Shown one piece after another: positions 19,701-63,862 of a stretch of DNA of 64,000 bases (positions are counted from its first letter, which is position 1; every line of letters starts with the position of its first letter). The position numbers were made by a program, and so were the translations under genes. Origin of the DNA: Tubiluchus corallicola (taxonomy: Eukaryota > Priapulida > Priapulimorpha > Priapulimorphida > Tubiluchidae); NCBI GenBank assembly GCA_030141605.1, contig JAQGDQ010000306.1:37501-101500 (forward strand), given 5' to 3'. A model generated the notes under the pieces. That model had not been told where the DNA came from. It made no database searches and saw only the letters and a program-made list of their open reading frames with translations.

Positions 19701-19729
19701 AGTGGCATCTACTAGATTATCTTATCGTC

Positions 19730-23490: not shown

Positions 23491-25269
<1,779 letters not shown>

Positions 25270-29635: not shown

Positions 29636-29794
<159 letters not shown>

Positions 29795-36427: not shown

Positions 36428-38014
36428 ATGGGTTTACTTAGCGGTTTGGAAATTGCTGTTGATTTTGATCCTGCCACTAAGTATAAAGAAAAGCAAAAGC
36501 TGCGAAAGTTAATTACAGAAAATGGAGGGACAATTTCTTACATTGTCACTCGCAAGGTAAGCCTCAAGGTATTGAGTTCATGGTACTGTCGTAGATGTTC
36601 TAACTCTTTGCAGCTCTCTTTTAGTAATGTATGTAAAACGTAAATACATTCAGTTCTGCAAAAACTCAATCTGACAATTAAAATTTAATACTGCTAATCT
36701 TAAATGTGCAAACAGATAAATAATCACCACATTTTGACAGTACAATACGATACGATACCAGCCATAAACACGATATTTGCAGGAAGTTTGATTTACAGAA
36801 AATTATTAATCATGTGTGTACATTTTGCTTGCAAACACAAAAATTGACTTTTTGTAACGTTTGTGAGTATTTCCTTTTGAATTTTTGACATCAATTCAAG
36901 TAATGTAAAAAAGATGCTTGTAGTACAATTCAGTTAATAAATCCATTTTGGTGTAAGGCTAAATTAATTGATAAGGCAGCTGGATTTATAAGACCGAAGA
37001 AGTCTATTAGTAAGATATACACTGCAATACCAATACTCTCCCCACACGGTATTAGCATATAGATATAGACATAGACATTTTATTTATCTCCTCATTTACA
37101 CCGGAATACAAATAGACTATTTGGGGTGTGCAGAAGAAAGGGTAGCGAAAGACCAGTTGGTCATCAAGTCAGCTACCAATGAAACTAATTGTTAAATAAT
37201 CTAATTTCAGTATTATACTTGGGCTAAACTTACTTTAATAAATACTGCTTTACAAAAATGGTAATTTTTTGGCTGATTAGTGTTATATTACAGGCTAATC
37301 TGTTAGAACTCAGTAGTTTTGTCCGCTTCACTTTTTGGTGTGCTGTCAACAACGCATTTCGTTGTTCTCTTATTTACCAGAGTTTATCAGTGCCTTCATC
37401 AATATGTTATATGTCTTCTTCCGTATTTTAAGAATTAGCTAAGATCGACTATATGACATAGGTGCTCTCGTTGCCGCATGTTGTGTGGCACAAGTCAACT
37501 TACTTGCATTTGGCTCCAAATTGTCAAAAATACTTGCCTCTTTACTGATTTGCTCATTGTTGCTTTGAGTTTAACAAAACAACGTTCAAGTTACTACAAA
37601 AGCAAGGCATTTATAAAACAGTAAAAATCTGTTGTTTTATCTATAATTATAATAAATGTTAATCCGCACACCTCTTTATATCAAAACAGATGTTTGATGG
37701 CAGCAGTGTTCTTGGTTTATTTGTAATCATTAATCTTTATTAAATGTTAATTTTTGCAGAATCAATATAACCAGTGATTCAGTATTATAAGACTAATTGA
37801 TCTTTTTTTTTGTAGAGCAAATTTGTTATTATCAACAATGAAGAGAAATACCAGACATCGTATAAATGCAAAGCAGCAAAGAAGTACAATATACCAGTTG
37901 TCTCTCCTGATTTTATAAGTTCTTCTCTTGCTGAGGGTCGACTGTTGGATGAACAAGGCTTTGTAATTGATGCAAAATTAGCAGCCAAGGAATTTAAAAA
38001 GGGAAAGATCATTG
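36428..38014 (+). CDS. PARP4: PARP4 exons 1-2: BRCT domain
   Basis: Exon 1 (36428-36556, 43 codons, ends phase 0) starts MGLLSGLEIAVDFDP and contains KLITENGGTISYIV, the G-G turn of a BRCT domain. Exon 2 (37816-38014, ends phase 1) gives KFVIINNEEKYQTSYKCKAA, then IPVVSPDFISSSLAEGRLL, where the usual BRCT W of V-x-x-x-W is replaced by F as in a diverged BRCT. The ATG at 36428 was chosen because the N-terminus begins directly with the BRCT, as in vertebrate PARP4. The -3 position is T, a weak start context, but G follows the ATG. BRCT domains bind phosphopeptides or other BRCTs. The partner here is unknown. Confidence 0.88.
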
Positions 38015-44000: not shown

Positions 44001-47000
44001 CCTTCTGTCAATGCATTTTGCAGCAGGTACAAACAGTAACTAAATTTTTTTAACCGACCTACATATTATACACATGGCTCTCCTCTAGTAGCAGTTCCAC
44101 ATACTCGAATGAGAGTCAGCTTTTTTCAATTAAATCAAGATCTCAACAGTCATGGATGTACATATAGAGCTGGGAGCATAGTTCAGCCAAATTGTACTTG
44201 TGGTTCCTCGCGAGAAACAGTACAACATTACTTTCTTGTGTGTCCCCAATATACAGCTAGTAGAATGAACCTTGAGGAAAAACTAACCCAGCTATACCAA
44301 CAAAATGTTTTCCCGTTTAATTTAAATAACTTGAGTAATCAACTGAAAATTTCAACTTTTCTTTTCGGATCGTCTCAACTAAGCTACAACCAAAATGTTA
44401 CATTCTTTCAAACTATCCAAGACTACATAAAATCTACGCACCTCTTTTCATCAATTGGTCATATGTAGTATTACTAATTTAACATCAATATTTATTTAAA
44501 CATTACTAACACTTAATAGCCATGCACCATATTTAGTAATTCTATTTCTTTGCAATACGGCCTAAGGTATTCTTAGACAGTTTATGGATAACTGTATGCC
44601 AAAGGTTATAACTTAATAAAAATATCTTTAGAAAAAAAATAAAGTATTGCAAGCTTATTGTTAATTACTATGAGGAGAAGGAGCACCTTGCAATCTGAAT
44701 GTGTTCCACATAATAGCAGTTTTTTATTTGGAACATTTTAAATGTAACATTAATTACAAATATTCGCAAATTGTTATTTTTTACTTATATTATATATTTT
44801 TTACTAGTTAATTATATACTCTATATAGTAATGCTTGTATAAGACATACATTATGTATATTTTTTATATACTTTATATGACATAAGTTTAAAAGTTAAAT
44901 ATTTTTACTGCATAGCCTATTGTACTAAGCTACTTGAATTTATTGATAGCCCTGGCTTACATGCAAACTGTAGGCACTTTATTTCAACTAATTTCAACTA
45001 CTTGCAAATGCAAGAGTCATCAGTTGCGCAATGTAGGCTTAACAGTCCTGTCGGTTGCTGTTTATATGCGAAGTGTTATTCAAAAATAGAAAATTAAGCT
45101 TTCGTTACTACAAGTAATAACTGGAGTGTAACTGTTCCAAGAGCACAATTTCTACAATACACACGTCAAAAAAGTTACTCATCCAGCCATAGTATCTAAT
45201 TGATTGACCTGTATTGTGTTCGATGATTATCAGCTGACTGTTTTCTGTTGACTAAAATTAGTTTCTGTTGGTGGAGTCTTAAAAAATAGTTAGGATCTGT
45301 TTCCATATGTGATTCAAATTTTTGATTGGTTTTGGTTTAAACATAATTTATTGAAGGTGTAACATCTAGGTTTGAAGCAGACAGTTTTACAACTGACCTA
45401 GTGGGAGCGAAGCAGTTGATTTGTTTTCATTGCAATACTATGTACATGTTATGTTATATTCATTGTTTATTGCTAGGAAGGGGAGATCATTGGTTTGCAG
45501 CTGTGTGCTTTCTTTCTGACCAGTAGCAGTGCCCTTTCATACTTTTCTGAACAATACAAGAAGTACACATCTACCCCTCATACTATGCAAGCCACGACTG
45601 AGTTAATGCATACAAAGATTGGATCAAAGGCACTGCAAAAGGTAAACAAAGTATGATCAATAAAACTTGCTTGCACTATATGGCATTCTGTGTTTGTTTG
45701 CATTTCTGCTTTGTATTGACAAAGCTTGGTCTAATAATGGCAATGTGCATCATAGAATTTTATATGCATGTAGTACATTTCAGACAAAGTAAATGGCGAA
45801 ATTATTGCAGTAGTTAAACTTCTAGTTACATACTGGAGAAGTTAGTTAAGTAACTGATTTATTATTCATCTTTTCTGAGCCAAGAACAAAATTTCTTTGC
45901 AACATATATGATTTTATTAGTAAGTAATCTACAATTGTAGGATTTCTTGTATGCAGGCAGATCACTCACTAGTTTCCAGTTTCAGTTCCTTTAGAGTTCT
46001 AATATATATTTGCTTCAATTTAAAGGACAAATTTAATACAAAAACAAATTTTCTTTTATTAAAAGAGCTGACCCTAAATTTGACATTAATTATATTAAAT
46101 TTCATGGCTTCCTCCCTAATGAGATTGGGCCCCAAAGTTGCATTTTCCACAAAACATTTTGTTCTGTTTTGTTTGCAAAATTTCAGAAAATCGCATCTAG
46201 CAACGACTTCTATAGATACCATTTCATTTCTGTGATGCTGCACTTGCAAACAATGCTACATACCAAACTGCGACATGTAATTAAGTGTAAGCACTGCAGT
46301 AACTCAGGACTGAATTTTGCTGACATCATCTAACAAGCAAAATGCACAAAATCAAGTTCCAAACTTTCAACGGAAATGACATCTTCACATCCGATTTCCT
46401 CTTATAAATTCCACCAAGAAAAAATTCAAAGTATCAGAAATTCTTAGCCTTTCTATTTTTGTGTAAAAGCAAAACTTCACAAAGTATGCTCTATTTGACC
46501 TTTAAAACAATTCTGTCTTCAACTGCTTGCAAACATTTAACAATATTTAGTAGGATAGTGACTTGACTAAATTACTGACATGTCAGGCACAGATGCATTA
46601 CTTTTTAGCTAAGAGAAGAAACTTCAGTCTCTGATGTTATACTACATCCAGCCACCCGGCAACTTGTGGAGAATATCTGGAAAGAAGCTCAAGGGGAACT
46701 TGCAGATGTACTACTCCACCCTGTGGAGTCATTGACATTAAAGAAGGTACATTTCCTGTAGAGTTTGAAGAACTATATAGGAGTAAATATCTAAATAGTG
46801 ATATATTTACAAAATACTGTACATTATTATCTCAATAAAAGTGCAGAAGTTGTTTTCCAAAATTATGTCCTCAAGAACTTGTAATGTCAAATGTGCTGTA
46901 TTACAACATTTTTTAGACGTGCTGCATTCAATACTAGCCTTCTAGTTAGTCTGTGAATTAATGAGGTGCGTTTATAATTGAAATAGGCCCAAATTGCTTG

Positions 47001-50000
47001 TGCATCATGTTATTCCACTTATTTCATATGTATGATTATTACAAGTAAATGATACATGTATGATTGTTAAAACTTTTACTATGGTTCTTAAAAGCGGTTA
47101 AAATTTTGTTTCAGGTTGAAGAGGCTGAAGCCATATTACTGCAGTTACAGCAAGTTTTAGAAGGAGGTGGTGATCAGCAGAAAGTACAAGCATTGATTAA
47201 AGATTTCTACTTGCTGGTACCACATCGTAATCAACAACCATTAGATAACTTGCACAGTCTTATCAAAAAGTTAGATTTGTGTCAGGTAACATTAAAAATC
47301 ATTTGTATTTTTTATAATACATTCAGTTTTTTCTCGTCAGGTATGCGCAACAGGTATGTTAAATGTATTACAATTTTAGATTCATGTGGCTTTGTTTGCT
47401 CATTGATCAGACATTGCCTAAGTATTTATTATGTTTGCTAAACATACATTTTCCACAAATCATGATTCGTTATATGCAAGCAACTTTTGCTTTGTTGATC
47501 TTTATCCTGCAGCAAAAATAGGAGTGTAGTAAAGTTTCTATAGGTATCAACAGAGAGAAGGCCACGAATTTTTTGCTTAACATTTGGCCTTTCGTGCTGC
47601 CAGTATTTACCTGGTTGTTTAAGTTGAAAGTATTTTCACAAAACTAAGTAGGCAATTTTCCTGTATGTAGCAGTACTGGTCACTTCTTTTTTTTGTAAGG
47701 CACCAGCATACTGCAAGTGACTGAATCGGGCAGAGGTGCCTCACTAAAATCTGTATAAGGTAAACAGCCGTGAGGGCTAATGCAACCACCCAGAGTAACT
47801 GTCGAACCCAGACAGTCCTGAACTAATCATACCAAGCATGCATACGTATCTGCTTGTCATTAACCTACCACAAATAATGATCTTACGAAAACTAACTAGA
47901 CTAAATATGGCTTGTTTTGATGCAGTTAATAAAAGATATGCTGTCCGTCAGCGAAGCTACTAACTGGATGACGCGTACCACCACACAAGCAAAATATCGA
48001 GCACTACGTTGTGTTATTCAGCATCTTGAGGATTATTCACCACAATATGAGAACGTGCGAAACTTGGTCCTTTCTTCTGATAAAAAGTTTGTGCAATTGT
48101 ATTAACATCTTTCCCGAATCAAAGTTTTCTAGTATATTTAATAAAACACTATGGCTATTATGCGAAATAAGTTTCAGAATCTTATAAACATTGACATTTT
48201 CCATTGCCTTTTTTATTCAGATCAGTTAAACGTAATTTACATAAATTCACTTAACACCATAATTTGTCTATAATTTTTATATTTGCATATACTTTAATTC
48301 TTATTTTGCTAAGAAATTTTTCTAGATCCACAATAAGCTTCATTCGTGACATGCGTAAAGTTTTTATTCATATTAAAATGGTATATTATTTAAACGATGT
48401 GACATAAAGCCCTAAAAACATAATTCATATTTATACAGGCCTTCACTTTTTTGAAACTTTTCAAACATGTGACATAATTATACACACTACTAATCGCTTT
48501 GATATGCCGGTGCTTTACTGAAATTACCTACACATTGGTTTTTGTAGAAACAGCAAGATTGCAGTGAAAAATGTTTTCGAAGTACATCGGCAATGTGAAG
48601 ACCCAGAATTCCAAAGCAGAATTGATAACAAGCGCCTGCTATTTCATGCCAGTAAGCCAGAAAATATGCTAGGCATACTTTCCAGGTATAAAATTGTGAA
48701 ATAATTGTCCATAAGACCATAATTGCTACACAGTATTAGTGATCATATTGTATGTTTGGTTATAATAAATACTATTGTTTTTCTAAAGTTTCCCACAGCA
48801 TAAAGTTCTCGTAAATATATTTTATTTTTGTTTATTCTAAAAGACTGTCTTCCCTTCATTTGCTGTTATAATAGTCATCTGCAACTTTGCGACATTTGCA
48901 ATATTTGCCAACCAACACTTTATAACTGTTTCCTTTTGATTTGTATTACTTTATTTGGAGTGAATTTAATATTTTCCAAAAACAAAAAGAAAAAATTCAA
49001 CATCTGTATTGTAAAATTGCTGTTCAGAATGGATAATTTGTCTTTTATACAGTGGATTCTGGGTTACTGTACAATAAGGAAGTTAGTGCTGTTGTGCCTT
49101 ACATTATAGTACTAAGTGTATACATTTCTGTAGGGGTTTGTTATTGCCTGGTGTCGTTGTTTCTAAGCTGGGCGGAGTTAGAACTGATATTGGAAATCTA
49201 GGATTTGGAATTTATTTTGCTGATGCCTCCAGGTAATTTGTAATTAGTTTTGTGTTGCATGGAATTTCATGAAATTTTACTACTTATAAGATCTTTTAAT
49301 ATTACTTCAATCTTATCTTTTAATTTGTTGCACTTTGAAAGCTTTTTAACATTTTTTCTTGTAGTTATTTACATTAAAAATATTCTTTAGTTTGTTGCAT
49401 ATTATAAATAGACTGTGAATTTTTAATTAGAAAGACTGACTTTAGTTAAAATTTTAATTTTTGAAACTGTTTATTTTTCAGTACAAGTTTAAAGTATTCG
49501 TCTGTTGGAAAGCACAGTCATACTAGATTTGTGCTTCTCCATGATGTGGCTCTGGGCAAGGTGAAAGAGTTTTCCACTCGGCAACTGGATCTCACTGAAC
49601 CACCCGATTCTTATGACAGCTGCCTGGGTGTAGCTAAAACTGAAGCCTTAAACTCTGATTTTACTGTATGTAAAGTGGTATTTATTATTAATTTGAAATA
49701 ACATAATTTACATCATTTGGCTGTCATCTTTCAGAACTGATATAGGCAACCTTTATTTTCATTTTCTCTCTAGGAAGATGAATATGCAATTTACAGCACA
49801 TCGCAGCAGAAAATGCGTTATTTAGTGGAGTTTTCCTTGCCTGAAGACCAAATAGCATCTTCACAACCAGAAAACATAGCAGAAGAAAGTATTCCAGCAA
49901 TTCCTGGTGTTGAACCAAAGAGTGAAGGTATTTTGCTGTATTTGAACCAAAAGCTATTTTACAGGAAAATTAATCCCCGTGATTAATTTTACCTAGACTT

Positions 50001-53000
50001 GTTAAAATGCAGCTGTCAGTAAATTCCGTGATTAAGTTTCATGTGATACAATGACTACAAATGAGTTTAAATATTTCGAAGATCGGGGTTCAGTTTTCAA
50101 TCGTTTTTCTTCCACCCAAAAAATTAAATAATGCTTAGCCCTCCTAAACCAAAGACTTTGTGAGGTTTATTATTTACAATCATGCGTCATTTGTGTATGA
50201 TTGGGCAAGGAACAACTATTTGTTGAAACATTGCTGCAGCTACTACACTGTTCTGTATGAAATTTTCAAAGACAAGTGCACAGCATTTTTGTGAACTTAA
50301 CTATATTCATATTTCAAGCAGTGTCTTTCTTTTTTGCTGTTGTCCTCTGATTGGTTTCCATGCACTTTAATTAGAAAACTCTGACTGTTTTAGGATGCCA
50401 AACTTATCAATGTTTCAGACAAAAATTCTTTTTTTCAGTGACCGAGATTGAGATAGATGATGTGCTTGATGTAGAGAATCCAATGGATAGTGTCAAAGTT
50501 GGCTTAGTAACGAATAACGATCAATTTATTCCACTGTGTGCTGTGCATATTCGAGCTAAATTGATTGACCTTGCCTCACAGGTTTGTCTATGAGCATGTA
50601 AGCGAGCTATAGTAATGGTACTTATGCACAACATGTTCATCAGTACCTATGCATTGTAATAAAGTGAAATAATGATATTGCCATCTGAATGTAGTCAAAG
50701 TTTGATCTACTTTTCGACTTAAACCTTTGACCTGATCCTAGATACAAACTTCTCAGTGGATTTAATATTTACTTAAATTTAAATAACAGTTTACTTAAAC
50801 ACTAAGATGCTAGTTAATGTAAGTGAGGCTTGTTTTTTACAACCTGGATAGGTAACCACCAGGAAAGCTGTTTCTGGGAAGTTTCAGTCCCCATACTGCC
50901 CCTTGATACCCCTTTGAGGATATCGTAAGCATGCAAACAAGGCTAAAACACTTCTGCCCATTCAGTGTCTCACCTTAGAGGAAAATAAAATACAATATAC
51001 AAAAACAGTGCCATATTTAAAAAATGTAGAATGCGTCATAGTTAATTAAACCACTTTGCAATCACAAAACAAGTTTATAAATTCACAAAGTGGCACACAA
51101 ATTTTCCACTTTACAGTATAACAGTGATTTTCTGTTTCTTTTGCTAGGTTGTTGTTTTCCAAGAGTACAAAAATGACAGCAAGTATCCAATAGAGGCGAA
51201 ATTTGTTTTTCCGCTTGTTGAGTTAGCAGCTGTTGTTGGATTTGAGGCTTTTATCAATGATAAGCACATTGTGGGAGAAGTGCAAGAGAAAGAAAAGGCC
51301 CACAAAGAGTATAGAGAAGCAGTTGCAGAGGGCCATGGTGCTTACCTCTTTGATCAAGAAACACCGGTGAGAACAATTTATTAGTTAACATCTCATCTTC
51401 CTGATAGTAACTGTTCATTTTAGGATCATTGGTAAATTCCGAAACAAGGATAAAGCATTTAACATGCCATTCACAGTACAAGAGAACATTGTAATAACAC
51501 TATAAAGATTTATTTTACATTCAATACATCAACCTTCTTCAAATGATAAGAACAAATTATATTAAAGACAGTTTGAAATGTTAAAACATTCTAAGTATCA
51601 GTACAGTACAACAATAGATATTGTTAATTTTTTATGTAAGCTCATTTACAAAAGGTTGAATTATAGCACAGCATAGAATGACAAAATGTAAGTTTTTAAC
51701 AGAATAAAAAAGGTATAACATACAATGATAAGTACTGTTAAACTATTCCAATGTGCCTGAAGAAAATGAGTTTAAAATTATGTTTGGAAATTAAATAAAC
51801 CACATGAGATAAAATTGTTCTTGAATCTCTCTGTTCTGCATTTAGGTAACGGGTATTTCAGATAGTGGTGAGCTCTATATCTATAAGTATGGGCATCTGA
51901 CAGTAGAGTATGGATTATATTATTAGGACTTTGAATTGATTATTTTACAAGAATTTTTGTGACAGTTAAATAAAGGTTGAAGATTTGCCAAAATTAGAGC
52001 ATTTGCATAGTGTTGATTTGTAACAAATTATTTTCAATTAGCATTTTTCAACAGTTTCTAACAAATCAATGAGATTTTGGAAGAGAGATGAGTACCATAC
52101 CTGACAAGCATATTCAACAACTGATCCAATGGTGGTGCAGTAACACCATTAAGAGATGCCCCATTTCTTTATAATTAGTAAATAATTAGTACAAAAAGTA
52201 AATTGTTTACTGGGTTTAGCATAAATTAAATGGACAAGGGTGTTCCATGTTAAAAGTTTAGCTACTGTACACCCAAAAGTTTAGCTGAATCAACTCTTTT
52301 TACCATCAAATGAGAGACATTAGTAGGGAAAATATCAGGAAGCCTAGCTATGACAGTCACAATCATTTTGATGAATTTAGAATATATTGAAATTTAGATT
52401 ATTAGCATTTGCCCATTGTAATGGCAATGTAATTACTTGATTAGCTGTTGTTTCAATTTTGAGATAGTCAGTAGTTAGTTCTTTGATGATGGTGGAAGAG
52501 GAAATAAGATATTTAATAAAATATTCGGAACTTGCATATATTCAAATTTTGTTAACAAAATGTTATGACCAGTGTGTTCAACAGCTTTTCGTAAATCTAA
52601 TAAAAAAACTGTAGAGGTACCACCTCTAGTGTCAACAGCTTTATGCAGTTGATACATTAAATAACTCAGAGTATGTATAGTGGAACCACCACAGATAAAT
52701 TTATATTGAGAATAACTTATTTGGTTACCAATTACCTGCCATAACCAATCAGAAACAAACTTTCCAAAATTTTGCAAAGTACCGGTGTATAGAGAAATAT
52801 GTCCCAGATCTTTTTCAAGTGATATAATGTCATTAGATTTTGGAATAAGTATAACATCTATGATGTAAAATGGCTGTAAATTAATTGTAAAACTGTTGAT
52901 TAATTAAAAAAATCTTGTTTAAGTTTTCACACAAGTGAATTAGTGGCTTACAAGGCTAAATTTTACCATCCCCACACTCAAGAAATTAGTTCGTGAAGCA

Positions 53001-56000
53001 GATTGGGATTAAGGTTAGGGTTAGAGTTATTGTATTTAAATTGTGTGTGAATTGTAAACTCCTTCCACTTACAATACACTGATACAGTTTTTGCTGTTAA
53101 AACTTCCGTTTCTGTTCATACTGTTTGTTTTCAGGATGTGTTTACTGTTAGCATTGGAAACTTGCCGCCTAAATGCCGAGCTGTGATCAAGATAACATAT
53201 ATTGCTGAACTTGGATTTGAAGCTGACCAGATAAGTTTTAGGATACCTGCCAACATAGCACCATGGCAGAGAAAAAATGCTCTTTCAACTGAAACACAGG
53301 TATTAAAATAATCCTACTGATATCGTCTGTTTCTGCTATGTGTAATTTCTTTTTATAACTATCTCATCATCTTGTCATTTGATTTTATTGTAGGGTGTGA
53401 CTGCTACAGTGGCTTCTTTCTTGGCGTGCCCAATCTCAATAATCGTAGGAATAGAAATGCCTTTTCTCATACAGAAATTAACATGCCCAACTCACATGAT
53501 TGAACATAAGGTATTTTTGTTGTTTTTAACATAATAAACTACATTATAAAATACTAGTGTTTATATTATTGCATGAAATTCTAAAAACTGTTATTGTAAA
53601 TTGCATTGCTAATAGCTGGTCATTAATTTTGAGTCATTTGCAAAGTTTGGCAGCTGCTTTATAATCTGTTCTTTTTTTCACATTTATTGACAGTTTGTGA
53701 CTCTCGTTCCATGTATGATACATCAACAAGTGATGCCTTAAACTGATATATATGTTGTTTTCATGTCGAAACACTTCTTCAATGACAAAATGTTCACTTC
53801 AGCAAACAATAACATAATGACGAGTTAAAGGTTTATACTTTACAGCACGCTTGGCCTATAAAGATGTATACGACATACTTTGATAGAATTGTACTTATAG
53901 ACGTGCAGTAGTAGCTTTAGGGTTGGCAACTGCTTTTGTCTGCCATCATCCCATTTACATTTGATTTGTGCTGTCCAAAGATCAGTAAGGCATAAATAGT
54001 TGAATATCTTCAGTTGAAATACAAAATAAATGCCATAGCACTAGCAGAGCTGCAGCCAACTCATAAATTATTTCATTTTTTGCCAAGGTTTAATAAATTT
54101 TCCACAGAATACAGCTAAAATACATCCTCGCACATTTACATTGTTTCCTATGAAAGGATTGTTTTGTTTGCTACATTTCGGTCAATACCATATTTTATTG
54201 GTCCAGATTATTAATTTACCATATACCATATACAGATCAGATGTCATTCTTACTGTCATATTTGTTACTGTTTTTTTACTTACATAGCGATCTGACACCA
54301 AGGCAGTAGTGTCAACAGCTGACAATAATGGCCTTGTTGATGGTTTTCATTTATTGATTTCTATTGCGGAGATACATATGCCTAGAATGTGGGTGGAAAA
54401 TTATCCCAATGAAGACCATCAGGTAATGAGCTGATTTCTTTGCAGAAAAAAATGTCTTTTGCTTAATAGCGTGCTCACAGTAATCTTTTCTTCAGGCAGT
54501 TTATTGAAAAACATGCTTAACTTGTTTCTATTTGCTTTTTTTGCTAAATTCACTTGGCATTTTTAGTTGGGAAATCATTGTGAAACTGTCAAAATAGCAT
54601 ATCTTTGCTTTTTCAAAATTTATATACAATTTAACCAGCTTTGTATGATCTTAACTTTTATGCCCAACATGCCATTTAACCTAAGCTACTACTTAGAACA
54701 ACAGTTCAAGCTTTCTGTCACAATCCATAACAATTTTTGTGGAACTGATTTTTTCCTGTAGAACCTAAATCCTAATAACACAATCAAAACAATGGCTGTT
54801 GTTGGTAACAACAGGTAGCATGTTGTTGTTATCAACAATAGGCATTGCTTTTGTTGCATAAGCTTTGTGAAAAGCATATTCTATTTTTTACCAATCACTT
54901 GCGTCATTTATCACCTCTGAATTTAAATTTTAAAATTATTTCTCTGTTTCTTTGTTGTTTTTATTGGAAAACTGCATTTTCATAAATTTATGCCTAAGCT
55001 GGTGTTTCCTTTTCAGGCGTGCATGTTAACATTTTTTCCGGAATTCGATGCTGAAGAAATTTCAACAGAGATACTGTTTTTGTTAGATATGTCTAACTCT
55101 ATGAAAGGTCAAGCAGCAACGGCTGCTAAGAAAGCTCTTCTTCTTGCTCTGCATCACCTACCCGACAATGTTATGTTTAACGTCGTAAAATTTGGCACTG
55201 GTAGGCAATTCTCGTCTTTTTATATAACCTGTTGAATAAAAGCATTTCATAAAAAAGTGATTGGGAAAACTCAGCACTTTTGTATTTTCTTGCAGGTTTT
55301 TCGGAATTGTTTCCAACTAGTGTTGAAAAATGTAAGGATACACTAAAGTTAGCCATACATTTTGTGCAAAATGCTTCTCCAGATCTCGGAAATTCTGAGC
55401 TGCTACGTCCATTGTTGTCATACTTTTTGCTGCATCCTGAAGATGGCTCACTCAGAAATGTGTTTCTAATTACTGATGGCTATGTGAACAACGAGCCTGC
55501 GGTTAGAAATTTAGTGAGAGAGAATTCGACACACACGCGATTGTTTGTTTTAGGCGTTGGGTATGAATACACTTTTTAACTTAATTGTTCTGTTTCTTTT
55601 GTTTTTGGCACAATATAAATCTGTACCTTCTTTTGTTTTCTGAGCTTTAGTAATAACTGCAATTATTTTTCATTGAAATAAGAGTATGAAATTTGTTGTT
55701 ATATATACTTATATCACGTCAGTCCTGGCTATGTTTGCTGCAAATATTAGATTCTTTGTATATTCAGTTCACAGGAACTTCAAATGAATTCAAAACTTCA
55801 AGTAAACACAATTTGTAGCGCTTTGTACATAAATGTTTGTCACTTGTAGCTCTACCACAAACAGACATTTTTGTCTGTCATTGGCACATGTTGGACGTGG
55901 ATGGTACGAGTACTTCGACTTGAAAACAAAGTCTCGATGGGAACATAAGATTATATCTTTCTATGACAAGGCAAAACAACCCAGCTTATCATCTGTGCGT

Positions 56001-59000
56001 GTGGACTGGCAGGTGTTTGATGATTTTGCACCACCTCCACAGCAGGCACCCCAACAGATACTTTCACTTTTCAATGGAAGTAGGCAAATAGTGTATGGAT
56101 TCGTAAACAATTGTAACCTGGTAAGAAAAAAAATTGAAAATAACGTTAATTAATTCTTTTTTCATTGCTTTATATTATTTCTGCCTGGAAGTTACCCGGC
56201 TTCAATTAGCTTATACTTTATACCATATAAACTGATTAGAGTTGGTGAGATGTACCTAAAGATCATTTGGAAAAAAATTGGCATGTATTGTGTGTTTTAG
56301 TACATGTTGTTTTGCCTATTGTATAACTATAAAAGCCTCTTTTTTTAAGGTTTAAAATGCATTTAAAGAAATTACTTAAAAAACCATGTGCTACTCGTAG
56401 TCATTGTTTTATTGGTGCATCTTAAATTGCCTTCTCATTAGCTATTTTGGTAAGATTTGTATTTTTCGTAATATTTTATTTGATCAGATTTCAATAACAT
56501 AATGCTCCAGACAAGTATCTTGCAGCACTCACTGCAGTGTAACTTGTAGTATATATCTGATATTTTTAAATACAGGCTACACTGAAAGCCGAGATTGGCG
56601 GCAAAGAAGTGTCAACAGTTGTTTCGACAACTGATCTAGCACAGACTACAGACAAGGTAGGCACATGAGGCTCAATTTTTTTTTAATGTTTTCGTTGCAT
56701 TTTTATTCTGTAATAGTGTAAAGCTGGAGTGATTAATAAAAATGCAAAATCTATTAAAAAATTTTGGAAACTGTAGGTACTTCACCAGCTGACAGCTCGT
56801 GCATTAATCCGAGACTGGGAGGAAGGTAGCTTACATGGAGATAGCATTCAGCATCAGGTAGGTACAGTCTCTGTATTTGCTTTATACTGTTATGTGGATA
56901 ACACTATTCTTTTACTAAAAGCAGGAAGCAACACTTATAAGTGATGAAATCAGACAAATCTGATGAAAAATTGGCAGTCATTTTCTGTGATATTTAGAGC
57001 TAAACTGAACGATCTCTCAATCCGTAACTCATTTTGTTCTATTGTCTAAGTTAAGATTTTGTTACCAATCTTAACATGAAGTGCACCTAGCAATAGTGCA
57101 GCATTGAACTTCAAATATTTAGCAGAAATTTTATATCCACATCACATGCATGTTTGTGACTGTTAAATTGAAACAGTGTTACTGTGCACCTCTCACAAAG
57201 AAATACAAAAACCCAGCAATTTTTAACTTTGCATTTTCTAAATCACTTTCTCTTTGCAATTTTATCAAAAAATGTAAATATTCCATCTGCAGCAAATGTT
57301 GTACATTGTAATAAATTTTTATTTAATAGGCGTTAAAGCAAAAACAACAGTCTTACATTATCGACTTGAGCAAAAAGTACTCTGTTGTCACCCAACTTAC
57401 AAGTTTTATTGCTGTAGAAGAACGAAAACCAGTAAGTATTGATGATTTCAGTGCAAACACTTTAGCAAGCCTATTTAATGCGTTATTTGTAAAGGATTAG
57501 ATTTCAGATCATCAGTAGTAGATAAAACTTGCAAAACAATGTAACAATGTTCATTTTACAATTGAAGTTTAGCCATTACATTGTTAGCAATTTTTGGTGT
57601 TTGTAAAAAGTGGTAAATATAAATGCCCATTCTTAAAGAAAATTTTTAAGTCAGTTAACTTTTTCTTGAAGTCATTCAATTTTTCAGGAAACATTCTGGA
57701 AAAGATTTCGCCTTTTGCTTCTGTGATTTGAATAGAAAATGTTTTATGGTATGATTTCATGCCTTCTGCAGTGCTAACAGTCAAGTCCATCCCTCTTTTA
57801 TGATCTGCACATATTTAATAAGTGAGGTCCTGTCAGTCAAGTGTCATGTTTGCTACATGCAGGCCATTATGTTGCTTGTTTTTAAGTAAGCTATTATATT
57901 GTTTTGTCTTTTGTTTTAGGATGATACAGCTCTAATTTCAACACCGAGCATAGAAGAAATTGTGTCAAGTGTCGATGTTGACGTGCTGCAGCTGGATAGT
58001 AAAGTGCATTACAGTTAGTATTATTTAATAAACTGAAAGTGGCTGCAAGAATAATGAGCTTTCTGTATTTTTAGTGCAAGTTCGAGAAATTGAAATCATG
58101 TTCATTTATCATCATTAGAGGCAAGTGGTTCAATTACAGCACAGCATTAAATTACAAAATATAAAATTTTTTGAAAGAATGAGCAAGGTAGAACATACAG
58201 CAATAAGCACTATTACACTGTTACAAGATACGTGAAGAAAATAAATTAAAATGATCTAACCTTATGTTTGGAAATTAAATAAATCATGTGAGATAAAACT
58301 GGTCTTGAACCTGTCTGTTCTGCAACTAGGTTAGGGGTATTTCATATGGTGGCGAGTACTACATCTATAAGTATGGGCATCTGGCAATAGAATGTGCATT
58401 ATATTATTAGGATTTTGAATTGATAAGAACAACTTATTGCAGGAATTTTTATGATGGTTTAGTAAAGGTTGAAAGTTGGCCAAAATTAGAACATTTACAT
58501 AATTTCCACTGAGCATTTTTGAATAGTTTCAAACAATTCGAAGAGATTTTGGAAGAGAGATGGGTGTTATACCTGAGAAACGTATTCAACAACTGGCCTA
58601 AATACACTAAGTGCAGTACATTTTTATATCATTAGGAGATCTCCCAGATCTGTTCATTAGTCGCAAAAGATAAATTGTTTACTGGCTTTAACATAAATTG
58701 AATGGACTTGGCTGTTCCATGTTAATTCTTTAGCTATTTGTGCACCTAAATCTTTAACTGAATCAATTCTTTTTACTCTTCAAATTACCTTCAAATCTTT
58801 CCCATTCTGTTGTGTAGAAATTTTTATATTAACCCTTTTCCACCAGAAATGTACCGCTTCTGTTGATAACTAAATTGTATTTTTAACTACTTTGCTAGAT
58901 AGGTGGGTGTATGCTGTATTAAGTTTGCACATGAAAAATTGTAATAAGAAAATCGCCACAAAGAATGTTTTCAGTGAATTATGTTACTTTCCTTAATTAG

Positions 59001-61691
59001 GTATCTAAAGCTAATTAAGTAAATTTTTTTCCACAACAATGGTAAATTTCAAAGTCAGTTAGTGTGCATCATAAAAATATTTTGCATTTGTATACTTTGT
59101 CAATTTTGTTTTTATTTATTTATTTTCCAAAATGTGCTTCTTCAAGCGCATCTCTGCAGAAACCTAAATACTACTAAAAATGTTTTTTGTGGAATCCTTT
59201 TTTGGCAAATTTTGTAGTTCCTTGCAGAGTAAAGTCAACAAAGGAAACCATTTTGCTGAATCAGGTCAACAAATTCTCACCTTATACTTTTGAAATTTGT
59301 AATTTTTCCAAAAAGCAATGGAAATTTATTTAGTTTTTCGTATTATTTTCACCACTCTGTTTCCAACAATAAATAGGGCCACTTGCTACAATTGCCCAGA
59401 AAGGGCAACAAAGTTTTTTAGATCGTCTGAGGATCAATTAGTCCATGTTATTTTAGTAAAATTCCTCTTCCAGTAAAGTTAAACATCTGACGAGAATTAA
59501 GACAAGTCGTTTGATATATTGCGATACGCATATGGCAGTAAAATTGTTGAGAAAGTAGTGAAAACCAGTAATAAATAATATGTAGAGATAAGCGATGGCA
59601 GATGTTTTACGTACTACTGATTTTCTAGTAGGAAATGTGTTTATATGGCATTTAGACAGCAAGAAGCTTCAGTTTCCAAAAAATAGCAAGTGATCTTTCT
59701 TGTACAACATAATCACTGTATTAGTCGTCAAGCCATTTGTGTGACTATGCATTCTACAAACTCAGATCAAACTCCTGTTAGTGAATATTACGAAATTATT
59801 TTGGCAAATATATAAAAATGGAGTCTGTATTACATGTCTGGGTTGTATTTAGACTTCAAAATGATCACTTCTTTTAAAATTATGAAAAATCTTGTAATAC
59901 AGATACTGTTCATTTGATTATTGTCAACAAGAAGGGGAGATTTTAAAGTATTAACTACTATAGACATTTTTGTTTGCTTTGAAGCAGAGAAGCAAAGGGC
60001 AAAGGACTCATTGACATGCTACGACATCGATGACATGGAGTTGGAAGAAGAGAGATATATAGAATGTGATGAGTAGGCCATTCAAAATACATTATTTGTG
60101 CAAAATTTACCAATAAAATGTTTAAACACTTAATATTTGTCATTATATACAAATTAGTGTTGCAACATATTAATTTTTTAGCGATTCAGTTGCACGTAAA
60201 ATGTTGTGTCTTGTACATTGTTATGTTGAGAGTAAGTGAAAAATATCTGTGACCACATATTTGGAGATTCACAAAACTAAAGTACAATTGGTAGTCAGGA
60301 AAATACACACACACTTCCGAATTTTGACCCGTAAGGTTTTGTTCTGGTTTTATACATTAATTTGTTAGGGTGGGTGGATAGACAACATCTTTCATTAGGT
60401 GCAAAAATAAATTAGTCTACTGTATCAGGCATGTTGTAACTGTTTGAAGGCAGCACTATGAATTCTGTTATGATTTTGGTGTTTTGATGTAATTTTGTAA
60501 TAACTTTTAATATAGTTAAATATACACAATGTTTTTAAATTTTAAGTTTAATAGTTTTTTGCTGTCAGCTCAATACTTATGAGGCGAGTAGCTTTACAGA
60601 ACAAGCAGAAGTTATCAAGCAAGAAGTTTTAGAATAGTATTAGTACTTTGTAAGGCACTTAATTTATATTGTTACAAATTTGTAATAGAATATGCTCAAA
60701 TCAACCCAGCACATCCAAAAAATAAGCTAGTAAAAACAGTCACATTTAACAGGAAAGTACTGAAAAACTACATACCTTTAAGTTACAGGCTTTAAAACAT
60801 TATCAATTAAATCGTTTTTGAAAGAATGTTGCTTCTGCATTGAGTATCGTTATACACAGTTGTAGGTGAAATGTTTGAATAAGTTTGATGATTTCGTAAA
60901 TGGTTGATTAGGGATGATTGCTAGCGAGAACCAAAGTTGAAAGCATTGTGTTTCAAAAGATAATTGTAGAAGTGCAATTTACTAAAGATTAAATGTTGTT
61001 ACAATCTCATAAAACGTATTTTTAATACTTCTACTATTTTTCTAACTCAGATGTGAGGAAGTGTCTTCAGATTATTCGCCAACATCGCCCAGTTTTGCAT
61101 ATGCTTCACCTGCATCAAGATCAACGTCGAGGTCACGAAGCTTACGAAGGTCAGGAAGTCGTGACAAAGCTATGGATTTTATTGAAATCTCACTGTGAGT
61201 AACAATTTTGTTGCTTAGTATGTGCTCTGGACTGAAAACTAGTTGTTGAAAGTATCGCATAGTTTTCAAGTGTACTGTAGTTAAATGGTAAAGGCTAGCA
61301 AGGTGCCGTATTTTCTATTAAAAACAATGCTGCAAATTTTGCTACATTTAGCTCAAATTTGTACATTTGCTAATTTTGCTAAACTTTGCTACATTTAAAA
61401 CTTTTGCCAGCATAATGAACAAAAATAGTGAGAAACATTTATTTCATGTTCATGCACTTTACGAAAAAAACCTGCATTACCTTCCCGAGTAGGTTGATGC
61501 TTAAGGAAAACACTTCTTCTTGGTACATTGCATCTCCCTACATGCTTTACTCTGGCTGAGTATTGCCTTTATAAGTAGTTTCATTACTGACCTTTCAAAC
61601 ACTTTCACACTTTCGTCTGCAAAACATTATAGTATGACAGCAGAGTTGGGCACCAAAAAACTACTCAGGCATTTACAATTGAACATCTTAA

Positions 61692-61738
<47 letters not shown>

Positions 61739-63862
61739 CGTCATCATCATTATTATCACCATCGATTTCCAACACCAGGAACAACAACAAAATAACATTT
61801 TAATAGATTTGGTTTCTATTCTTAAAAATATTAATAATACAAAGATTACAGATAAATCGTGGATGTTGTAACAAAAGAATTATGTTTTATTTGCTAGTAA
61901 ACAGATATTTTGCACCCCATTACAGGTTCCTTTTTCAGTGTAAGCACAACAATATGCACCACCTTGAAATGCATAATTACTGAATTACCCTAACAAAATG
62001 CAGAAAATACAGAAACATTATTAGCACCCTATAATCGGCTGCAAAATATCTGTTTATTAGCAAATGAACCATAATTCTTTTATTATAACATACATGATTC
62101 CGTCTGTAACCTTTGTTTATTAACAAAAACAATAACAACAACATCTGCAATGGTTGCATTATAACTGGTTTTTTTTGTATCAGCAGTGACGGTTTTTGTT
62201 ATCATGCGACATCAGACAAAGGTGTTCCGGCAAGCAATAGTGATGAAGACATGGGGTTTGATCTATTTAATGGAGACACAAATGTTCGTCTGAAAGGTAA
62301 ATCCTTCTCACCCAAGAAAGTTACTAAAGCAAATGTTAAGCGTGGTGTGCAACAAATGACATATGTTGGGAGGTCCTTGGCATCTAAGTCTTCTGAACAG
62401 CCAGACGAACCAAAAGAAATGGAAGAGAGCAGTGATGATGATGATATGGGATTTGGTCTTTTTGATGATGGACCACCAGTTTTACGCCCACATCATGGAC
62501 CACCAGTTTCACGCCCACATCAGCAACGAGTTACCAAAGTTGTTTCAGAAGTAAAAAGTTTTGAGGAAATGGTGAAAGAAGCACATGATAAAAAAGGAAA
62601 ACAGAAACAGTTACAAGCGAAAGGTCTCTACAGTTACAGATACGGATTACCTTCTAAAGCATCTGTTCAAAGTCTATGCCTTCCTACTTCTTCTTCTAAA
62701 GCAACCCATGGTGCACAAGCTCTACCTCCAAAATTTGGAGGATCTCCCGGACTCGGAGGACTATTTTCTTCTCAACCTGCTCCTGCAAGAGCTGAAACTG
62801 CTGTACCTCCACCTCATGAGAGTTTGCATTCTGGCTATGCTGTTTCCTCTACAAGAGCTCCAGGTGCTGCTTCAGATATAAGAGGATTTTCATTTCATCC
62901 TGTAGGGTTCACTGGGTTAATGGCTGAAAGGCCTTTCACTCAGCAGCATTCTTTTGTTTCATCCCAAATGCCAATTGTTAATTCTAGCACAGAGGTACCT
63001 TTTGCTGCAGCAATGCAGTACGTATCATCATCTCTACCCCCGCCATGTCGTCAAGCCACACGTAGTGCTGATAGAGTGCCTCCGCCTCCACCTCCACCGT
63101 GTCGTCAGCCCCCACCAAGTGCTGAAAGAGTGCCTTTGCCTCCACTCCCACTACATGCCAGCCAATCTGTCGAAATTCTCCTTCAATCTGGCGGAAGTGA
63201 CATTCTTGATCAACAGACAGCAGTTAAAGCAGGTAATTTTTGCATGTTAGTACCTTGCTGTTTTCACAGCTTTTAACATTATTTTTTTATGAACTCTAGA
63301 TACTATGTTCTTGTTATTCTTCTAATACAGGTTTTATAATCTAATATTGTGTTTGCATGAAACAAAAACCTCTTTTAGATTTTTTGGATAAATGATTCCC
63401 CACAACAACTATAGTCCATGAGGTAGACCCAGAATTTGTGAATTGGTACCGTCTGGGGTGGCAAATTGTAGTGCTGTTTACTTGAAAGGTAAATGTCTGT
63501 AGCTGAAGAAACTTTGAAGCCAAGTTCTGAGTGGTAGCTTAGTGGTAGTAATCATCATCCCAGCTTCGAAGATATGACCATGACTGGGACCAAAAATTGT
63601 GGATAAGAAAAATATAAACGACAATATTTTTTTGAAACACTGGCTCAGTTATTGGAAATTGAAACTCATACCTGCACAACATTGATAATCACAATGATTA
63701 TTAAAATGACATTTTGCAAAATTTCATTAGAAGTTCAGGGTATTGTTGACAGAAATTATCCTATATGGTCCAATTGCAGGCAGGTTTTTTTTACTTACAT
63801 ATTTGATGTATGTTTTTTTTACTTTTGCAGACCTTAATTATACGCATTCACACAAGGAATAA
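36428..63862 (+). CDS. PARP4: PARP4 (vault poly(ADP-ribose) polymerase) homologue, at least 27 coding exons
   Basis: Chained exons, all with GT-AG borders and matching phases: 36428-36556, 37816-38014, 38789-38916, 39859-39996, 45477-45641, 46609-46746, 47115-47285, 47926-48086, 48548-48685, 49134-49232, 49482-49665, 49774-49927, 50439-50581, 51148-51366, 53135-53299, 53394-53510, 54288-54422, 55017-55200, 55296-55560, 55850-56120, 56576-56656, 56777-56857, 57330-57431, 57920-58013, 59988-60072, 61051-61194, 62184-63232. They give about 1646 residues, against 1724 for human PARP4. Domain order BRCT, PARP regulatory, PARP catalytic, VIT, vWA is diagnostic of vault PARP, a mono-ADP-ribosyltransferase bound to the major vault protein in vault particles and also found in nucleus and spindle. 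The C-terminal end is uncertain: a small exon 63831-63862 would add a stop after about 10 residues, or the gene continues beyond the window. Confidence 0.93.
36840..39900 (+). repeat. Intragenic segmental duplication within PARP4
   Basis: Intron 1 to intron 2 sequence (about 36840-37600 and 38440-38665) is repeated, diverged and shortened, at about 39260-39900. Matching blocks include CAATACTCTCCC(C/G)ACACG, TACAAAAATGGTAATTTTTT, GTTTAACAAA(A/C)CAA(C/T)(G/A)TTCAAGTTA and a long block starting CGTTTCGCCAAGTTAAAATA. The copy containing exon 2 is the longer one, and the corresponding central part is missing from the other copy. The duplicated unit ends inside exon 4, giving the pseudo-exon at 38623-38664. 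Confidence 0.8.
38623..38664 (+). pseudogene. Pseudo-exon, duplicated start of PARP4 exon 4
   Basis: Following an intact acceptor (ACTTTCAG) it reads KYDKYKCDTQYLSL, identical to the first 14 residues of exon 4 (KYDKYKRDTQYLSL) except one. After position 38664 homology stops and the frame soon meets a stop. Lying between exons 2 and 3, it cannot be part of a normal PARP4 product, but its live acceptor could produce an aberrant or poison-exon transcript. Confidence 0.8.
38789..45641 (+). CDS. PARP4: PARP4 exons 3-5: linker and WGR-like segment
   Basis: Exon 3 (38789-38916) encodes the linker ending LPAFTENFYIVKYADLQ. Exon 4 (39859-39996) gives QYLSLELHAALD and YKFRVFFHYGNLKDV, and exon 5 (45477-45641) gives CAFFLTSSSALSYFSEQYKK and KIGSKALQK. 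The order of a strand pair, an aromatic F-x-x-H-x-G turn and an A-x-x-x-F-x-x-x-Y-K-K helix resembles a degenerate WGR domain. The donor of exon 4 is set at 39996 (TTTG|GTTTGT) because the stronger-looking GTAACT at 40001 would break phase with exon 5. The 5.5-kb intron 4 holds a LINE and a candidate extra exon. Confidence 0.75.
40497..40624 (+). CDS. Candidate extra or alternative PARP4 exon
   Basis: Between exons 4 and 5 an open frame reads SRRFKLLTNDNSF then LNLTVLQCTLYVGEKHYLHL and ends AAAAAT|GTAAGT, a strong donor. An acceptor after GTCATCAGCTCAG at 40496 would keep phase 0 on both sides, so inclusion would not disrupt the reading frame. I find no counterpart in the vertebrate protein at this place. 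It could be an alternative exon, an exon gained in this lineage, or chance. Confidence 0.3.
41180..44640 (+). mobile_element. Near full-length non-LTR retrotransposon (LINE) in PARP4 intron 4, NPGP-type N-terminus
   Basis: In the sense orientation of PARP4, the copy shows an N-terminal hydrophobic run followed by SGNIHPNPGP (41278-41307), endonuclease pieces (MQVNIRSLMAN, FICLTETWL, then a shifted MYVNNRLSAHQLQ part), and reverse transcriptase: NSNKAVGPDSISNFVMK, NYRPISLLSAI, VFLDISKAFDKVWHHGLL, GVSQGSILG and the intact catalytic FADDTS (about 43247). It ends with a C-terminal Cys-rich block CTCGSSRETVQHYFLVCPQY (about 44190-44250). The tail is AATAAAAATATC with an A-rich end. At least six stops or shifts make it inactive. 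The layout is that of CR1/jockey-group LINEs common in aquatic invertebrates. The clade is not fixed. Confidence 0.87.
46609..48086 (+). CDS. PARP4: PARP4 exons 6-8: PARP regulatory (alpha-helical) domain
   Basis: Exon 6 (46609-46746, 46 codons) encodes HPATRQLVENIWKEAQGELA. Exon 7 (47115-47285, 57 codons) encodes VEEAEAILLQLQQVLEGG and KDFYLLVPHRN then LIKKLDLCQ. Exon 8 (47926-48086, ends phase 2) encodes LIKDMLSVSEATNW, QAKYRALRCVIQHLED and VRNLVLSSDK. This is the helical regulatory domain (residues about 254-410) that packs against the catalytic fold, with the F/Y-x-x-I/V-P-H-x landmark seen in PARPs. Exon 8 ends at AA|GTTTGT. The alternative of reading through meets a stop at 48105. Confidence 0.88.
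48548..49927 (+). CDS. PARP4: PARP4 exons 9-12: PARP catalytic domain with H-Y-E triad
   Basis: Exon 9 (48548-48685) has KRLLFHASKPENMLGILS, in which His (about residue 443) is the NAD-binding histidine of the triad. Exon 10 (49134-49232) has RGLLLPGVVVSK and RTDIGNLGFGIYFADAS with the triad Tyr (about 483). Exon 11 (49482-49665) has TSLKYSSVGKHSHTRFVLLH and VALGKV. Exon 12 (49774-49927) starts EDEYAIYSTSQQKMRYLVEF, whose Glu (about 553) aligns with the catalytic Glu of PARP1 (N-E-Y-I-V-Y). All three residues are present, so the enzyme is predicted active. By family precedent it transfers single ADP-ribose units from NAD+ to protein targets. Confidence 0.92.
50439..54422 (+). CDS. PARP4: PARP4 exons 13-17: VIT domain
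   Basis: Exon 13 (50439-50581) has an acidic linker then PLCAVHIRAKLIDLASQ. Exon 14 (51148-51366) has YPIEAKFVFPL, VVGFEAFINDKHIVGEVQEK and AVAEGHGAYLFDQ. Exon 15 (53135-53299) has DVFTVSIGNLPPKCRAVIKI and FRIPANIAPWQ. Exons 16 (53394-53510) and 17 (54288-54422) finish with VGIEMPF and EIHMPRMWVE. This is a complete vault/inter-alpha-trypsin (VIT) domain, the partner that always precedes vWA in this family and in inter-alpha-trypsin heavy chains. Intron 14 carries a reverse-strand LINE relic. Confidence 0.92.
51520..52900 (-). mobile_element. LINE relic in PARP4 intron 14, reverse strand
   Basis: The minus strand at 52475-52777 reads SDWLWQVIGNQIS, QYKFICGGSTIHTLSYLMYQ, LHKAVDTRGGTSTVFLLDLR and HNILLTKFEYMQVPNILL, which follows reverse transcriptase motifs around F-V-D-x-x-K-A-F-D in jockey/CR1-group LINEs. 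The usual KAFD is altered to KAVE. The remaining part to about 51520 is the presumed 3' half, which has a sister copy at 58110-58800. Confidence 0.75.
55017..56120 (+). CDS. PARP4: PARP4 exons 18-20: vWA domain
   Basis: Exon 18 (55017-55200) gives EILFLLDMSNSMKGQAATAA, where D885-x-S887-x-S889 is an intact MIDAS metal-binding motif, and ends at GTG of FNVVKFGTG. Exon 19 (55296-55560) gives SPDLGNSELLRPLL, in which the MIDAS Thr of vertebrate PARP4 (GNT) is Ser, then NVFLITDGYVNNEP with the MIDAS Asp, and HTRLFVLGVG. Exon 20 (55850-56120) gives GRGWYEYFDLKTKSRWEHKI, VRVDWQVFDDFAPPPQQAP and RQIVYGFVNNC. This is a complete von Willebrand A fold plus its C-terminal extension, likely a protein-interaction module in the vault. 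Confidence 0.92.
56576..58013 (+). CDS. PARP4: PARP4 exons 21-24: post-vWA conserved region
   Basis: Exon 21 (56576-56656) EVSTVVSTTDLAQTTDK, exon 22 (56777-56857) LHQLTARALIRDWEEGSLHG, exon 23 (57330-57431) YSVVTQLTSFIAVEERKP and exon 24 (57920-58013) SIEEIVSSVDVD match the conserved stretch that follows vWA in PARP4 and inter-alpha-trypsin heavy chains (A-A-R-A-L-I-x-x-x, then T-x-x-T-S-F-V-A-V). Exon 24 ends phase 1 at TACA|GTTAGT. Confidence 0.88.
58110..58800 (-). mobile_element. LINE relic in PARP4 intron 24, reverse strand
   Basis: A diverged second copy of the 51630-52320 sequence in the same orientation. Shared blocks are AATTA(C/T)AGCACAGCAT, GGTATTTCA(G/T)AT(A/G)GTGG, ATCTATAAGTATGGGCATCT, TATATTATTAGGA(C/T)TTTGAAT and GGAAGAGAGATG. 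No coding frame is preserved. It is therefore a 3' LINE segment. Confidence 0.72.
58801..59987 (+). other. Remaining intron 24 of PARP4
   Basis: AT-rich intronic sequence. No exon, RNA or repeat recognised. Confidence 0.5.
59988..61194 (+). CDS. PARP4: PARP4 exons 25-26: acidic then RS-rich segment with a YSPTSPS heptad
   Basis: Exon 25 (59988-60072) encodes KQRAKDSLTCYDIDDMELEE, a basic-then-acidic linker, and ends phase 2 at GA|GTAGGC. Exon 26 (61051-61194) encodes SSDYSPTSPSFAYASPASRS and then STSRSRSLRRSGSRDKAMDF. The YSPTSPS at 61073-61093 is an exact RNA polymerase II CTD heptad, and the following part is an RS-like stretch of the type phosphorylated by SR kinases. Low similarity to vertebrate PARP4 is expected here because this part evolves quickly. 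Exons are accepted from splice borders and frame. Confidence 0.72.
61694..61736. repeat. (AT)n microsatellite in PARP4 intron 26
   Basis: About 21 perfect AT units followed by GACGTCATCATCATTATTATC. Confidence 0.95.
62184..63232 (+). CDS. PARP4: PARP4 exon 27: P-stalk-like motifs and Pro-rich C-terminal region
   Basis: A single 1049-nt exon after TATCAG, entered in phase 2 and left in phase 1 at GCA G|GTAATT. It encodes about residues 1297-1647. It holds SDEDMGFDLF (62239-62268) and SDDDDMGFGLFDD (62431-62469), near copies of the acidic tail of ribosomal P0/P1/P2 proteins. Next come two tandem GPPVxRPHx units, a KSFEEMVKEAHDKKGKQKQL helix, GLGGLFSSQPAPARAE, a RGFSFHPVG segment (compare PIRGFGSYHPSA in human PARP4), and a Pro-rich run with PPPPPPPCRQPPPSAERVPL. 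The equivalent vertebrate region is also low-complexity. Most of it is probably disordered. Confidence 0.82.
62239..62268 (+). other. P-stalk-like motif 1 in PARP4
   Basis: Encodes SDEDMGFDLF, about residues 1316-1325, differing from the ribosomal P-protein tail DDDMGFGLFD mainly by Asp for Gly before LF. Confidence 0.75.
62431..62469 (+). other. P-stalk-like motif 2 in PARP4
   Basis: Encodes SDDDDMGFGLFDD, about residues 1380-1392. The core DDDMGFGLFD is identical to the conserved last ten residues of most eukaryotic P1/P2/P0 stalk proteins, but here it is internal. Confidence 0.85.
62470..62523 (+). repeat. Coding tandem repeat of 27 bp, two units
   Basis: Two adjacent units beginning GGACCACCAGTTT and ending CGCCCACATCA, differing at two positions. 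They encode GPPVLRPHH and GPPVSRPHQ directly after P-stalk-like motif 2. Confidence 0.9.
63535..63600 (+). mobile_element. Probable tRNA-derived SINE head
   Basis: A box TAGCTTAGTGG at 63535-63545 and a weak B box AGCTTCGAAGA at 63562-63572 inside an imperfect stem. The spacing is shorter than in a true tRNA and no acceptor stem forms. Confidence 0.45.
63831..63862 (+). CDS. PARP4: Possible terminal exon of PARP4
   Basis: After a good acceptor (TTTTTTTACTTTTGCAG) the phase-1 continuation from exon 27 reads DLNYTHSHKE and a TAA. It is short and has no counterpart to the vertebrate C-terminal major-vault-protein-binding region. It may be a shorter isoform end or a false exon, with the true 3' exons beyond 64000. 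Confidence 0.3.

Follow-up and report, generated by a model that had tools for sequence, protein, structure and literature searches.

Two internal sequences resembling the ribosomal P-stalk tail in the PARP4 gene of the priapulid Tubiluchus corallicola

Why should an ADP-ribosyltransferase of the vault particle encode, in the middle of its chain, the peptide by which ribosomes recruit translation factors? The question is raised by a PARP4 gene, most of which lies on the + strand of a 64,000-nucleotide stretch of the Tubiluchus corallicola genome (positions 37,501-101,500 of contig C409, hereafter the window). One exon of this gene, in the linker between the domain-rich part and the C-terminal end, contains two copies of the tail of the ribosomal P proteins. 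To the reading that these are two functional mimics of the P-stalk tail, located in the linker of an apparently single-copy PARP4 and able to dock proteins that read the stalk tail, we give roughly even odds (about 0.5).

The linker exon is 1,049 nt long. Its frame (62185-63231) comprises 349 open codons within a stop-free stretch of 388 codons, the exon joins in frame to the preceding Ser/Arg-rich exon, and its 3′ end at 63232 is followed by GTAATT. The acceptor at 62180-62186 is a tandem NAGNAG, in which either choice is in frame and the two products differ by one residue. The initial annotation had reported two internal stalk-tail copies in this exon; the frame and the coordinates were verified, and the copies lie 54 residues apart (Table 1). 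It had also placed a Pro-rich sequence after the copies, and such a sequence makes up the C-terminal half of the exon.

Copy 2 includes the complete DDDMGFGLFD, that is, ten of the ten residues of the stalk tail, in agreement with the annotation. The P-stalk tail has been described as an acidic segment, phosphorylated by CK2, ahead of the segment that binds, MGFGLFD (PMC11624264), or as the elements DDD plus FGLF (PMC3280276). Both described elements, the acidic, serine-containing run and MGFGLFD, are complete in copy 2. In a Pfam search the whole exon matched Ribosomal_60s (PF00428) with 30.3 bits (gathering cut-off 28.1), over profile columns 61-88 only, and a 40-residue piece with copy 2 alone scored 27.3 bits, just under the cut-off. 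The Pro-rich remainder of the exon had no Ribosomal_60s score, and the exon had no other Pfam match; neither the dimerisation domain nor the uL10 N-terminal domain of the P proteins was found in it. The PDB matches of the exon were the tails of P1, P2 and P0 (18 sequences, best E = 0.058), and they are weak because the match is short. The PARP4 protein is not a P protein, though its tails may work like a P tail.

The similarity was compared with chance in several ways. The two best BLOSUM62 scores of the exon against SDDDMGFGLFD were 57 and 45 (self-score 61), copy 1 being the less stalk-like of the two. When the exon was shuffled 50,000 times, the score never rose above 44, and apart from the two copies no stop-free peptide of the window, in any of its six frames, scored higher than 22. 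The genome provides the stronger test. Its 343.5 Mb were searched with patterns; this search skips very common words, and tails split by an intron escape it. The pattern GAYATGGGNTTYGGNYTNTTYGAY had three matches, PARP4 copy 2 and two ribosomal tails terminated by a stop codon. The broader pattern GANGANGAYATGGGNTTYNNNYTNTTY (a pair of acidic residues followed by D-M-G-F-x-(L or F)-F) had four: both PARP4 copies and two ribosomal P-protein tails ending in a stop. The expectation from base composition was 0.004 and 0.016 sites in the genome, respectively, and the reversed patterns gave no match in either case. The match of both PARP4 copies to the stalk tail is beyond chance.

These numbers also bear on a neutral origin, in which a linker under low constraint became tail-like by accident and was doubled through local duplication. 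A 54-bp tandem duplication does exist within the exon, and the linker aligns poorly to human PARP4. But the shuffles failed to match even the weaker copy, and the genome holds four sites against an expectation of 0.016, all of them in P proteins or PARP4. Moreover, the copies share little outside the motif, and their codons do not indicate recent copying: six comparisons, between the copies and with the P tails on contigs C1248 and C1948, gave no support for it (p 0.16-0.82). We consider a neutral resemblance quite improbable. A larger repeat enclosing both tails was also rejected, since their flanks resemble each other weakly and not in register (p = 0.03).

Matches to the P-protein family were found at three places in the genome, on contigs C1248, C1948 and C417, which by resemblance we take to be the genes of P2, P0 and P1, respectively. 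The stop-terminated tails end in ...ESDDDMGFGLFD and ...ESDEDMGFGLFD; the tail at C1248:609066 reads DDDMGFGLFD and that at C1948:15830 reads DEDMGFGLFD. DDD is common to copy 2 and the C1248 tail, and DED to copy 1 and the C1948 tail. In the P1-like gene of C417 (around base 1040) the sequence runs ...EESDDDMGFG and then departs from the motif. The C417 tail is probably interrupted by an intron after MGFG, and it was missed by the unsplit pattern because of this interruption.

The tails could in principle have been acquired by exon shuffling, the end of a P-protein gene having been copied into PARP4 and left there without function. Copy 1 and the C1948 tail have 22 identical bases in common, and copy 2 aligns better to the C1248 tail than to the C1948 tail. 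Such identity is, however, expected when the same peptide is encoded in the codon usage of this genome (p = 0.156 and 0.504). No stop codon follows either copy, and the restriction of the Pfam match to profile columns 61-88 also argues against a copied gene end. We give this explanation hardly any credence.

In prokaryotes the core of the motif occurred at the rate of chance. Among 84,980 prokaryotic genomes GAYATGGGNTTYGGNYTNTTYGAY had five sites, three of them exact DMGFGLFD, where 2-4 were expected by chance, and none of the five stood behind an acidic run. In viral contigs the stalk-tail pattern had one match, in a 76-residue frame and without an acidic run. The broader pattern had three, with Phe at the position of the tail's Leu: DEDMGFEFF in two, which share a 78-residue frame, and EDDMGFIFF in one, in a 589-residue frame. 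All four viral matches were taken as unrelated. A query with the VIT exon for PARP4 relatives among viral contigs gave four pattern matches, none of which was confirmed.

Are the tails a general feature of PARP4? The initial annotation had suggested that an E-D-G-L-G-V-L stretch of vertebrate PARP4 is a worn relic of the motif. Ahead of the linker the two proteins share a stretch, DVDFLP in human PARP4 and DVDVLQ in the protein studied here. In the human linker (residues 1165-1560) the eukaryotic tail aligned best at a place other than EDGLGVL, and not significantly (p = 0.14). The archaeal aP1 tail, taken as SEEEALAGLSALFG, resembles the PARP4 tails in having an acidic run followed by a hydrophobic cluster; it differs in sequence and in its C-terminal place. 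It was compared here with human PARP4 alone, where it aligned with EEDGLGVLPA no better than shuffles did (p = 0.52). As the human linker contains no significant tail, human EEDGLGVL is no evidence of a relic, and this part of the annotation was not supported. The part of PMC4245714, on PARP4 evolution, that was accessible holds no linker sequences.

The assignment of the gene to PARP4, made in the initial annotation, is borne out by its Pfam domain order, with the VIT and vWA domains located after the catalytic domain as expected of PARP4, and by the closest PDB match. The catalytic part matched human PARP4 (8sx1) with E = 1.2e-80, followed by the PARP3 family with 1.8e-22. H, Y and E, which we take to be the PARP catalytic triad, are all retained. 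Identity to human PARP4 was 47% (241 of 515 aligned residues; human residues 249-766). The N-terminal BRCT domain of human PARP4 gave a weak tblastn match at 37825-37962 (E = 0.015).

Spliced alignment also produced two exons, 41457-41525 and 43444-43466, that were rejected, as they apparently lie inside a long interspersed nuclear element (LINE), and it divided the linker exon incorrectly in its Pro-rich part. Because of these errors only exons supported by a domain or by a clear alignment were used. The window contains two retrotransposon bodies of LINE type (19504-22222 and 41192-44465), recognised by eye from frames that resemble reverse transcriptase; the second sits inside the PARP4 gene, and it is the one that misled the alignment.

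Table 1. Exons and sequence elements of the PARP4 gene, in window coordinates.
Feature	Position	Strand	Basis
N-terminal (BRCT)-like exon	37816..37962	+	Weak similarity to human PARP4
PARP regulatory and catalytic domain exons	46609..49906	+	Spliced alignment, Pfam, PDB match
Main VIT domain exons (51148-51366, 53135-53299)	51148..53299	+	Spliced alignment; Pfam VIT 3.6e-35
vWA domain exons (55017-55200, 55296-55560, 55850-56120)	55017..56120	+	Spliced alignment; Pfam VWA_3 7.7e-26
Exon with IEEIVSSVDVDVLQL, collinear to human VSELIAKEDVDFLPY	57920..58013	+	Last clear alignment before the linker
Ser/Arg-rich exon upstream of the linker exon	61051..61194	+	Phase-2 donor, in-frame join
Linker exon with both tails and the Pro-rich C-terminal half	62184..63232	+	Splice sites, phase, open frame
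Stalk-tail copy 1, SDEDMGFDLF, then N, G, D	62239..62268	+	Open frame; BLOSUM62 scan; Pfam 13 bits
Stalk-tail copy 2, SDDDDMGFGLFD, next codon D to 62469	62431..62466	+	BLOSUM62 scan; Pfam 27.3 bits
54-bp tandem duplication inside the linker exon	63032..63151	+	Pro-rich, Cys-containing unit PPPPPPPCRQ...SAERVP

Beyond the window, from the window-equivalent position 72185-72290 on, the C-terminal pieces of the gene are MINT-like (MINT, the MVP-interacting domain). With E values up to 1 allowed, the pieced C-terminus matched a single PDB sequence, human PARP4 residues 1583-1704 (E = 0.0077); this value is optimistic, because similarity to the human protein guided the choice of the pieces. The spliced alignment of this region scored 190.5, compared with 141-167 in 12 shuffled controls, and some of its small exons are not credible. 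The similarity to the MINT end is weak but collinear, and we consider the domain probably present. With the catalytic H-Y-E, the VIT and vWA domains and the MINT-like end, the gene is, judged by its domains, a genuine PARP4.

PARP4 is apparently single-copy in the genome, because a VIT search gave one strong locus, the present one (82.3 bits); the two other hits above the cut-off, both on contig C954, were weaker (34.9 and 31.1 bits). Twelve MVP matches were found, on contigs C1787, C2138 and C2264, where they recur with identical scores and nearly identical spacing. This pattern points to haplotype contigs that are redundant, or to duplications of recent date. Elsewhere in the window there are a tandem array of nine 36-bp units (2114-2434) and two long perfect microsatellites, (TC)n at 24384-24576 and (TTG)n at 29650-29794.

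What could the tails do? If the exon is translated in this frame, as we infer, each PARP4 chain would present two stalk tails between the catalytic/VIT/vWA half and the MVP-binding (MINT) end. Since in known vaults MINT holds PARP4 to the inner wall, with some 20 PARP4 molecules in a reconstituted vault (PMC13174449, preprint), the two tails of each molecule would hang into the vault lumen. There or in the cytosol they may fish for stalk-tail readers and hold eEF2, eEF1A, eIF5B, ABCE1 or GCN2, or ribosomes carrying such a factor. FoldIndex values of -0.19 to 0.01 for exon residues 1-101, which include both copies, score this region as unfolded or borderline and are consistent with a flexible tether.

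The affinity of a single tail would be micromolar and could be raised by the two copies per chain and the many chains per vault. The yeast P-stalk binds eIF5B with a dissociation constant of 4.6 micromolar when dephosphorylated and 11.2 micromolar when phosphorylated (PMC11624264), and values of 10.4 and 23.6 micromolar have been given for the archaeal tail and EF1A (PMC6791870). The archaeal aP1 tail adopts different shapes in binding several translation GTPases (PMC6791870). Activation of GCN2 requires the P tails and increases with their number (PMC6421407). The initial annotation had proposed molecular mimicry, with docking on eEF2 or eEF1A and a possible path from docking to modification. 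We retain mimicry as the best reading of the two tails on sequence grounds, because the unsplit pattern is limited in this genome to the PARP4 copies and the P tails. Docking on eEF2 or eEF1A is plausible, and PARP4 might ADP-ribosylate eEF2. The sequence, its frame, the identity of the gene and the genome-wide specificity of the unsplit motif are shown here; translation, binding, the partner and what PARP4 would do to it are inferred from them.

Several observations weigh against functional mimicry. Copy 1 reads MGFDLFN, with G replaced by D and the last D by N, and alone it matches only columns 77-88 of Ribosomal_60s with 13 bits, below the cut-off of 28.1. The PARP4 tails are internal, the next stop in the genomic frame lying 269 codons on; the P tails seen here and in the cited papers terminate the chain, with no internal case noticed among them. 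One archaeal tail ends in an additional residue, and binding was not markedly altered when that residue was removed (PMC6791870). Exon residues 151-301 have positive FoldIndex values (0.11 to 0.24), therefore the linker as a whole is not uniformly scored as unfolded. Human PARP4 has no detectable tail, therefore the tails are not a general PARP4 feature.

Acidic runs followed by F-G-x-F are also similar to the peptides that bind ear domains. The copies could be functional acidic-hydrophobic motifs for another partner, such as an adaptor ear domain, a different vault protein (TEP1, for example) or PARP4's own domains, and their likeness to the stalk a convergence. The internal position of the PARP4 motif, which the ribosomal tails do not share, and the lower stalk likeness of copy 1 relative to copy 2 fit such a partner. 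Convergence, however, need not yield the exact M-G-F-G-L-F-D, and copy 2 has ten of the ten residues of DDDMGFGLFD, while the unsplit pattern otherwise occurs in this genome in P proteins only. Another partner is a serious alternative, though in our judgement a rather unlikely one.

We know of no established function of the vault. On the mimicry reading, the particle might act as a stand-in ribosomal stalk: the many tails that PARP4, fixed to the inner wall, presents to the lumen would draw factors, or ribosomes loaded with factors, to the ADP-ribosyltransferase, and the vault would store, silence or modify translation machinery. Where no tail is recognisable, as in human, the link would be made in another way or would have been lost. 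This extension is speculative, and we regard it as unlikely. Associations of vaults with ribosomes, which speak for the mimicry reading itself, have been described. Ribosomes, mostly 80S, are found inside 80 of 985 cytosolic vaults (8%) of Dictyostelium; they vary little in orientation, their tunnel exit reportedly facing the wall, and enrichment near MVP was seen for 69 of 79 ribosomal proteins (PMC13100048). In an earlier study one tomogram showed three vaults with ribosomes inside (PMC11088655), and sea urchin vaults co-purify with ribosomes and have a cavity that can hold one (PMC550661). The observations in Dictyostelium and sea urchin do not involve the tail, and a tunnel exit directed towards the wall does not by itself favour contact with the stalk, which is a further point against mimicry.

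The stalk tail is also a target of foreign proteins. Ribosome-inactivating proteins bind it, one of them at 13 micromolar (PMC3280276; also PMC5086656), and the copies could be decoys that soak up such proteins, with the abundant vault as carrier. There is no sign, however, of this animal meeting such proteins, and a closed shell would be a poor site for displaying a decoy. We think a decoy very improbable.

Compared with known systems, the protein shares the PARP regulatory domain, catalytic H-Y-E, VIT, vWA and MINT-like end of PARP4/vPARP (vault PARP, a clade 5 PARP), from which it differs by the two linker stalk tails. With the P0 (uL10), P1 and P2 tail (PF00428) it shares the DDDMGFGLFD of copy 2, the upstream serine and acidic run, and a region scored as unfolded, whereas its tails are internal and two per enzyme chain. 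No report of a stalk tail in PARP4 was among the matches listed in the open-access literature, a source that leaves subscription journals mostly uncovered. Among the matches listed for MGFGLF (titles and beginnings of abstracts), no other non-ribosomal carrier of the tail was noticed.

If mimicry is correct, the stalk tail would be used by a non-ribosomal protein of the cell's own. The two tails would provide a sequence-level handle connecting a central protein of the vault with the peptide that ribosomes use to recruit translation factors, and a direct and cheap binding test, timely as vaults are now seen enclosing ribosomes. The tails of the Tubiluchus protein hint at a physical link of the vault particle to the protein-making machinery.

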